Positions 34,956 to 36,497 of a DNA stretch of 64,000 nt are shown here, in pieces. Source of the DNA: Chitinophaga vietnamensis (GTDB lineage: Bacteria > Bacteroidota > Bacteroidia > Chitinophagales > Chitinophagaceae); the NCBI RefSeq assembly GCF_902167635.1, contig NZ_CABHMS010000003.1, forward strand, positions 620,001 through 684,000, in the 5' to 3' direction. The translations under genes were made by a program, and so were the position numbers. A model generated the notes under the pieces. It was not told where the DNA came from. It worked only from the letters and a program-made list of their open reading frames with translations, and did not search any database. How positions within the stretch are numbered: the first letter of the stretch is position 1; every line of letters starts with the position of its first letter.

Positions 34956-35417
34956 CTAAAACCAGGTGGTCGCTTGTTCCTCTTCATTGGCAGGAGAGGT
35001 AGCGGCAGGCGAGGCGTCGGGTGTAGCCGTTTCTTCCGCGGTTGTTTCCTGCTTGGGCTGTGGCATCACATTTTTGCGGATGGCGCCTTCTACTACAGCT
35101 CCTTCTTCAATTTCGAGTATCATCGCGTTCACATCGCCTTTCACATAGGCTTTGGTAGTGATAAAGGCTTTATTGGTGATATAAACGTCGCCATAAACTT
35201 TTCCATGTACAAGGAGGTCCTGGGCATACACATGGCCGCGGATACTGGCATTCTCGCTGATCACGAGCTTGCCGGTCGTTTTCACGTCGCCGCGCACATG
35301 TCCGTCGATACGGCCGGAGATGGTGGCATCGATGCTGCCATTCACCGAAACGGCTTTAGGTAATCGGAAGGAGCCAGGGGCTATCAGGTTTCGGAATAAA
35401 TGTCTGACGTTGATCAC
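34956..35417 (-). CDS. Bactofilin (polymer-forming cytoskeletal protein)
   Basis: 153 residues from a GTG start at 35417; no ATG lies in the conserved N-terminal part. The central region (about 20-110) is the right-handed beta-helix of bactofilins: SVNGSIDATISGRIDGHVRGDVKT, KLVISENASIRGHVYAQDLLVHGKVYGDVY and VKGDVNAMILEIEEGAVVEGAI show the repeated hydrophobic/Gly pattern. The C-terminus (about 118-153) is an acidic Thr/Ala/Pro-rich disordered tail. Bactofilins polymerise without nucleotides and scaffold envelope machinery. It follows the ParM-like actin gene by only 9 bp, implying co-expression. Confidence 0.92.
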   Translation of the reverse strand: MINVRHLFRNLIAPGSFRLPKAVSVNGSIDATISGRIDGHVRGDVKTTGKLVISENASIRGHVYAQDLLVHGKVYGDVYITNKAFITTKAYVKGDVNAMILEIEEGAVVEGAIRKNVMPQPKQETTAEETATPDASPAATSPANEEEQATTWF

Positions 35418-35426
35418 ACAAACAAA

Positions 35427-36497
35427 TTAGATAGTTACAGGATGAGGTGTGGCGGCGCCGGCATGTCCATCTTCTTCAAATATGGAGATGATAGAGCTGG
35501 CATTGCCGAGGTCCAGGCCTACGCTTCTTTGCGGCTTATTATCGGATATCCTTAACGAGTTATAAAGATAACCAACACTGATGAGTTTTTCCGGTTCGGG
35601 GGCTACTTCTACCGGGATAAAGTCGCGGAACTCTTCGGTGAAGGCGTCTGTCAGCTCGCGGTAGTGCGCGCCGCCGCCCATCAGGTATATCTTTTCACAA
35701 GTTTCAAAATCGAGGTCGGTGAAGTAGCTGCGCATCAGCGGGGATACTACTTCCTTGTAATATTGCGTGAGCACGCCTTTGCGCATATCGCGCAGGTCGA
35801 TGCGTTTGCGGTTCGTGAAGATAGAGCCTTTCATGAACGCGTCATCTACCTGATGTTCGTTCTTCATTTCCAGGTAGTGTTTCTGGTTCAGCTCACGGGT
35901 CAGGTTGTTGATGGCGTAGCGGATGCCATGGGAGCTGAAGCAGGTACGGTGTACCAGCCCGTCGCCAGTGGCCATACCGCCTTCGATGGTGCCAAAGCCA
36001 AAGCTGATGGCGATGAAATTATCCAACTGCGGCGCGTTGATCGTCTTCTTCAAACCAATGATCCCACCTACGATCTCCGGGATGATCTCATATTTTTCAA
36101 TATCAAACATCCCCTTCTTGAAAGAGCCTTTGGTATTGAAAGTCTGGGTATCATAATCCACCAGAAAATGTCTTTTGCTCAGGAACTGCTCTGCGGCGGT
36201 TTTGTAGATATTATAGGTAGAGAAGGGAAAACCCATGGTGATGCTCATCGGTTGCTGCACTTTGTCGAGCGTAGTGAGCAGGGCGGATTTGAACAATATC
36301 TCATAATCTTCTTCCGAAGGGGAAGCGTTAGTGATCCTGCCGGGATTGATGCCGCCTCTTTTGGCAAGATTGCCGACCAGGTACCAGGTGTCGTCTTTCT
36401 TGATTTTTAATCCGTTCAGCAAATCCTTACTGGAATTTTCTGTGTTCCCGAAGGCGGTCTCAAATACGCTGGGGAAGCCGGTTGTAGATACTTTCAT
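35427..36497 (-). CDS. ParM/StbA-like actin-family protein with C-terminal phosphate-1 motif
   Basis: 356 residues. The order of the actin-fold motifs is unusual. The protein opens with FPSVFETAF, which in ParM/Alp-type proteins comes after the phosphate-1 loop. The Val/Gly region WYLVGNLAKRGG and PMSITMGFPFSTY follow, then the phosphate-2-like AISFGFGTIEGG (165-173, with Ser165 where Asp is usual) and the adenosine motif IYLMGGGAHYREL (270-282). The phosphate-1 motif SVGLDLGNASSIISIFEED stands at 325-343, after the last helix. This is what a circular permutation would give. Likely a filament-forming ATPase working with the bactofilin encoded 9 bp downstream. Confidence 0.8.
   Translation of the reverse strand: MKVSTTGFPSVFETAFGNTENSSKDLLNGLKIKKDDTWYLVGNLAKRGGINPGRITNASPSEEDYEILFKSALLTTLDKVQQPMSITMGFPFSTYNIYKTAAEQFLSKRHFLVDYDTQTFNTKGSFKKGMFDIEKYEIIPEIVGGIIGLKKTINAPQLDNFIAISFGFGTIEGGMATGDGLVHRTCFSSHGIRYAINNLTRELNQKHYLEMKNEHQVDDAFMKGSIFTNRKRIDLRDMRKGVLTQYYKEVVSPLMRSYFTDLDFETCEKIYLMGGGAHYRELTDAFTEEFRDFIPVEVAPEPEKLISVGYLYNSLRISDNKPQRSVGLDLGNASSIISIFEEDGHAGAATPHPVTI

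Follow-up and report, generated by a model that had tools for sequence, protein, structure and literature searches.

The actin-like gene and its surroundings

The stretch of DNA analysed here (the window) comprises 64,000 nucleotides of Chitinophaga vietnamensis, assembly GCF_902167635.1, contig NZ_CABHMS010000003.1, positions 620,001 to 684,000 of the forward strand. On its minus strand lies a gene for an actin-like protein, followed by a bactofilin gene that starts 9 nt past the actin stop codon. The features of both genes are listed below in window coordinates.

35427..36497, minus strand: gene of an actin-like protein of the ParM lineage, almost certainly circularly permuted, 356 residues, ATG start (open reading frame, relatives and profile matches)
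36465..36476, minus strand: FPSV segment, residues 8-11, at the N-terminus; in pCBH ParM the segment comes after phosphate-1
36075..36077, minus strand: E141, invariant in 28/28 proteins; Gln at the aligned site in 5/5 canonical ParM-like proteins
35988..36005, minus strand: phosphate-2 loop SFGFGT, residues 165-170, with S165 at the site of the canonical Asp
35664..35684, minus strand: adenosine motif LMGGGAH, residues 272-278; GGG in 55/55 proteins
35469..35525, minus strand: displaced phosphate-1 segment SVGLDLGNASSIISIFEED, residues 325-343 (motif scan, profiles and PDB matches)
35430..35468, minus strand: C-terminal tail, residues 344-356, ending in PVTI (compared with Chitinophaga relatives)
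34956..35417, minus strand: partner bactofilin, 153 residues, GTG start (PF04519, E 7.7e-23, 81 bits for a cut-off of 27.9)
34959..34964, minus strand: C-terminal Trp-Phe of the partner bactofilin (tail comparison)

The first-pass annotation of this DNA had placed the phosphate-1 loop at residues 325-343, with none at the N-terminus, and this was confirmed in the 356-residue reading frame. The frame extends 18 codons upstream of the ATG, and these contain no phosphate-1 motif. The motifs thus follow one another as phosphate-2, adenosine and phosphate-1, which is not the canonical order. The gene is present as a single copy in its own genome (search to E ≤ 10).

The PVTI end has counterparts elsewhere, since many Chitinophaga actins carry a short hydrophobic end after a linker (NPITL, NPVTL, TIKL and similar). 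This hydrophobic end is a possible second candidate binding motif, next to the bactofilin tail discussed below. At the start of the window, positions 1-2887 hold a tandem array of 10.9 copies of a 264-bp unit (86% matches), which overlaps a series of open reading frames of 86-87 residues.

Distribution of the family

Genomes encoding a relative were counted in samples that all lie within the window's own phylum and that include its own genome each time. The gene was found in 59 of the 79 genomes of the genus, then in 11/195 genomes of the family sample, 7/298 of the order sample, 4/295 of the class sample and 23/395 of the phylum sample. The family and phylum counts were obtained after removal of one match each: a weak one, L013, whose reading frame reads as glycosyltransferase-like, and a weak one in genome G677 (E 4.8e-4, positions 253-302). 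Proteins from named Chitinophaga loci are 86-93% identical to the window actin, and the distant members, taken from an alignment of 28 proteins (A3), are 34-44% identical to it. Altogether we collected 56 distinct open frames, corresponding to 55 distinct proteins once trimmed to their start, the window protein included. Outside chromosomes, tblastn gave no match to the window protein or to its relative L050 in 72,556 plasmid records and none to the relative L034 in 50,697 phage records, and degenerate-pattern scans of viral contigs revealed no relative.

Evidence for circular permutation

The annotation had also proposed that the protein is circularly permuted, and had named homologues with an additional N-terminal phosphate-1 loop as evidence against this. 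We looked for such homologues and found none: each of the 56 distinct open frames has a single GxDxG[NST] motif, 15-58 residues from the end. In three members collected later (L149-L151) it lies 108-110 residues from the end and is followed by a long tail. From the GY/GF of the last helix it is 20 residues to the phosphate-1 Asp in 50 proteins and 19 in the other five, a nearly constant distance.

Canonical profiles skip their own N-terminal segment when compared with the native proteins. The window protein matches phrog_691 with an E-value of 3.9e-22 over profile positions 16-310, and in the four native relatives tested the match starts at positions 26, 26, 27 and 47. Similarly, ALP_N is matched only from position 17-20 on (six of the eight relatives listed singly, and both relatives of a second test). 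Those six of eight scored above the cut-off of 26.3 bits, L009 and L005 gave no match, and 13 of 23 members matched ALP_N at E ≤ 1. The window protein gave no ALP_N match, nor did its genome as a whole; the protein reached 26.6 bits with MreB-like_C, under the cut-off of 27.8, and NCBIfam returned a weak PilM match alone (E 0.035). An identity as MreB was rejected on a PF06723 score of 11.2 bits for a cut-off of 27.

The annotation had called for a permuted comparison of homologues, which we carried out in silico by transferring a 21-residue C-terminal block to the N-terminus. All five proteins tested (of the 55) then matched ALP_N from position 1 and gained 5.7, 6.7, 8.6, 9.1 and 6.9 bits, and all four tested with phrog_691 matched from position 6 and gained 4.9, 10.7, 11.7 and 5.9 bits. 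When the block of one protein was scrambled before being moved, the gains were 0.6 and 0.4 bits and the matches began at positions 16 and 25, only 1-2 positions earlier.

Matches to phrog_691 as such are ubiquitous, being found in 296/296 phylum genomes. Among those listed, ten fall below 1e-14, namely nine members of the permuted family and L073, while most others are partial (profile positions ~145-324) and presumably stem from FtsA, DnaK and MreB. L073 (1492-2373 of its locus, minus strand) is a canonical ParM-like protein from a genome of the same phylum and shares 43-45% identity with proteins from Geobacter and Pelobacter plasmids.

Solved structures were searched with A3, a profile of the 28 native proteins, and with A5 and A4, which contain the same ten sequences in native and moved order, respectively. 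A3 matched pCBH ParM with an E-value of 2.7e-7 over chain positions 25-322, and the chain's own IDLGYG loop precedes the matched part. From A5 to A4, the match extended from positions 27-325 (E 5e-8) to positions 10-325 (E 3.1e-8), with a score barely higher (35.5 to 36.1 bits). AlfA was matched by A4 (E 0.023) but not by A5 at E ≤ 1. The move left Dh-cParM1 unchanged (22.2 to 22.0 bits) and lowered several Hsp70 chains by 2-3 bits (3jxu from 16.7 to 13.7). In the searches with native profiles, family positions ~315-339 align directly, if weakly (E 0.06-0.92), with the phosphate-1 strand at the N-terminus of Hsp70/DnaK chains, for example residues 21-45 of 3jxu and 29-52 of 4rtf. Single proteins, native or permuted, and a native profile A1 found no actin in the PDB; the deeper profiles did.

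We conclude that the protein is almost certainly a circularly permuted member of the ParM/ALP lineage, as the first-pass annotation had suggested from one sequence. This reading rests on canonical profiles skipping their N-terminal segment on native proteins, on the moved block raising score and coverage where a scrambled block adds almost nothing, on the C-terminal segment matching the Hsp70/DnaK phosphate-1 strand directly, though weakly, and on the same motif order in every relative collected.

Other readings of the C-terminal loop fare less well. The hairpin could complete subdomain IA of the next subunit, so that subunits would be linked by strand donation. Terminal hairpins are what strand-donation assemblies, known from pilus biology, make use of, and the sequences are compatible with such an exchange. 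We nevertheless consider it improbable, since the spacing of 19-20 residues between helix and Asp, seen in all 55 proteins, is just ~4-8 residues above the summed free ends (12-15) of four canonical relatives. Such a spacing suits a short bridge in cis, and its constancy is in line with a fixed connection that returns to its own domain. Still less credible is an unrelated glycine-rich tail in a protein that simply lost phosphate-1. Short motifs of this kind are common, and a canonical phosphate-2 can look alike (IDIGFNT in L073); however, the motif is kept in 56/56 frames, fills the missing profile positions where the scrambled control does not, weakly matches the phosphate-1 strand of Hsp70/DnaK, and coexists with a separate phosphate-2. 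A frameshift, assembly error or mis-called frame that cut off a true N-terminus can be dismissed, because the in-frame stretch upstream is at most 36 codons long and lacks a phosphate-1 motif at the 35 loci encoding a relative, and because many independent genomes share the architecture, even though in one relative (L008) the aligned start codon reads ATA, which leaves the true start of that protein unsure.

The active site

For the phosphate-2 and adenosine motifs, the positions (165-170 and 272-278) and the relative order given by the first-pass annotation stand. Its description of phosphate-2 as normal does not, as the Asp is replaced by Ser. This loss is general: the site holds Ser in 52 proteins, Gly in two and Asn in one, and Asp in none of the 55, whereas Asp is kept in all five canonical ParM-like proteins compared (four from named plasmids, and L073). 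Of the other signatures of actin ATPases, GxDxGN is present at the C-terminus in 55/55 and the GGG of the adenosine motif is retained. We take D170 of ParM to be the phosphate-2 Asp. In the ParM D170A mutant, filament dynamics are lost and static filaments are still observed (PMC5539076). By comparison with such mutants, the loss of the Asp makes slow or absent ATP hydrolysis a reasonable expectation for the permuted family. The lost Asp, like the bactofilin partner described below, goes beyond what the first-pass annotation had noticed.

A likely bactofilin partner

In the genus, actin and bactofilin counts go strictly together. All 59 actin-positive genomes encode exactly two bactofilins and all 20 actin-negative genomes exactly one. 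Compared by eye, the genome lists for the actin and for the second bactofilin are identical, and this second bactofilin sits immediately after the actin on its contig.

We then considered 30 wider regions: 20 were fetched, a pair of which belongs to a single genome, and the other 10 were taken from the 24 loci of the search that gave the named Chitinophaga relatives. A bactofilin gene lies downstream on the same strand in 25 of them, directly in 21, about 1 kb further on in one, and past a gene for a TPR-like protein in three. The five regions without one are L103, L105, L106, L108 and L112, the contig of L103 ending ~1.5 kb downstream; the genomes of these five regions encode a single bactofilin, on another contig. 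Among the distant loci of the phylum (L047-L065), the 1.5-kb flank includes a bactofilin gene in 12 of 19 and none in seven (L051, L054-L057, L059 and L063). Three genomes of family f118 encode the actin and a single bactofilin on another contig. Consequently, the partner is not obligatory across the phylum. No other neighbour cluster is common across lineages in the 30 regions, whose neighbours were clustered and in part annotated.

In the three f37 genomes that carry the TPR-like gene (L114-L116), the order is M23-peptidase-like protein, actin, TPR-like protein, bactofilin, small membrane proteins and an ATP synthase subunit a-like protein; these names were assigned by inspecting the L114 sequences rather than by searching family profiles.

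Based on gene content and order, a specific partnership between actin and bactofilin is very likely in this lineage. For the permuted protein itself, two readings differ from the filament proposed below. It might be a nucleotide sensor or clamp that does not polymerise itself and regulates the bactofilin polymer. Although the lost phosphate-2 Asp and the strict pairing in the genus would both suit such a role, the actin-like length and the retention of the other motifs speak against it, and we regard it as unlikely. Alternatively, it could be a DNA segregation actin of the ParM type that became permuted by chance, given that its nearest profiles are those of partition proteins (phrog_691, ALP_N and pCBH ParM). 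The partners of partition actins bind DNA. No adjoining gene for a DNA-binding adapter, as in ParMRC, was found in the 30 regions, whose neighbours are partly annotated; instead the next gene encodes a bactofilin in 21 of them, the only neighbour cluster that recurs across lineages. As the phosphate-2 Asp is lost as well, and as relatives are missing from the plasmid and phage records searched, a segregation role appears improbable.

The aromatic tail of linked bactofilins

The bactofilins linked to the actin differ from other bactofilins at their C-terminus. The last residue is Phe or Trp in 50 of 51 distinct linked proteins, the exception ending in Trp-Ile. In the 27 unlinked ones, drawn from the 28 genomes searched, it is Phe once and never Trp. 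Fisher P-values take no account of the relatedness of the proteins. The bactofilins found past the TPR-like gene (L114-L116) end in Pro, Lys and Arg, which are not aromatic. In a tree of 51 of the 69 bactofilins, resolution is poor and no more than 2-3 label changes are required, so that the aromatic end may have arisen once or twice.

In the f118 genomes, where the bactofilin is on another contig, it is the actins themselves (L149-L151) that carry an end of the linked-bactofilin type, GMW or GTW, on a long low-complexity tail. This suggests that the aromatic end is a movable recruitment tag. The actin itself would be the simplest candidate for the receptor, and the bactofilin tail may make direct contact with it, an idea we put forward tentatively and hold at somewhat less than even chances. 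The presence of the tail on the f118 actins implies that it may bind a third protein instead.

A proposed actin-bactofilin cytoskeleton

Taken as a whole, the sequence comparisons favour, as the probable explanation, a permuted actin of the ParM lineage that forms a static filament tethered to a bactofilin scaffold. On this account, permutation and the loss of the phosphate-2 Asp both befell a ParM-lineage actin, which in this lineage has a second bactofilin as its partner. The C-terminal hairpin is predicted to insert into subdomain IA of its own chain, and the nucleotide pocket restored in this way would bind ATP and hydrolyse it slowly or not at all. Static filaments or patches would result, rather than the dynamic filaments that segregate DNA. 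The bactofilin, which belongs to a kind that polymerises without nucleotides, would serve as the scaffold, and its aromatic tail would be the most likely contact. The pair could thus be a chromosomal cytoskeleton acting in cell shape or organisation and not in plasmid segregation.

For a role in cell shape or organisation, which we derive by analogy, we see about even chances. Such a role is reasonable because FcmB, a chromosomal actin derived from partition actins, serves cell shape. A more elaborate form of the proposal, in which a non-hydrolysing permuted actin and the bactofilin co-assemble through the aromatic tag into a two-polymer cytoskeleton, possibly with the hairpin donated between actin subunits, is conceivable and on present sequence data rather unlikely.

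Comparison with known systems

Among the literature matches listed, a scope that most subscription papers fall outside, there is no report of a naturally permuted actin or of an actin-bactofilin pair. The term 'circular permutation' appears once in PMC7203096, alongside actin and ParM and not within its first 300,000 characters. Of the statements seen, the nearest is a general one on kinase fold groups, that of the ASKHA superfamily among them, whose cores may be circular permutations of one another (PMC1079889).

Of the solved structures, pCBH ParM (PDB 6ixw and 6izr) is the best sequence match to the permuted family. It resembles the family, as do the partition actins of ALP_N and phrog_691, in the FPS segment, the GGG of the adenosine motif and overall length. 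Unlike the permuted family, which ends with phosphate-1, pCBH ParM begins with it; and the phosphate-2 Asp, present in five canonical ParM-like proteins, is missing from the permuted family. The gene next to the permuted actin encodes a bactofilin, in contrast to the partners of partition actins. AlfA, a plasmid-segregation actin, is aligned with the moved-order profile over positions 7-143 (PDB 6bqw, E 0.023) and 10-146 (PDB 6f95, E 0.26).

The permuted family illustrates the extent to which an actin chain can be reordered while remaining conserved, and it would link a cytoskeleton that binds nucleotides to one that needs none. Polymerisation in the absence of nucleotides is described for the bactofilin BacM (PMC4372379). 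The partner bactofilin shares the PF04519 domain with BacM-like bactofilins, and the aromatic C-terminus marks the linked ones, as against the single case in 27 among those unlinked. Two predictions follow, namely static filaments resulting from the lost Asp and binding of the bactofilin tail to the actin.

A functional parallel may be FcmB of filamentous cyanobacteria, a chromosomal actin that is said to derive from plasmid-partition actins and to act in cell morphology (PMC12645912). Both systems consist of a chromosomal actin with a second gene immediately downstream. FcmB differs in having a ParM-like domain and a partner annotated as ParR, and the word 'bactofilin' has no occurrence in the main text of that paper (PMC12645912). 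Joint inheritance of the permuted actin with an unrelated filament protein, the bactofilin, in this group of bacteria suggests a mixed two-filament skeleton of a kind previously unstudied.
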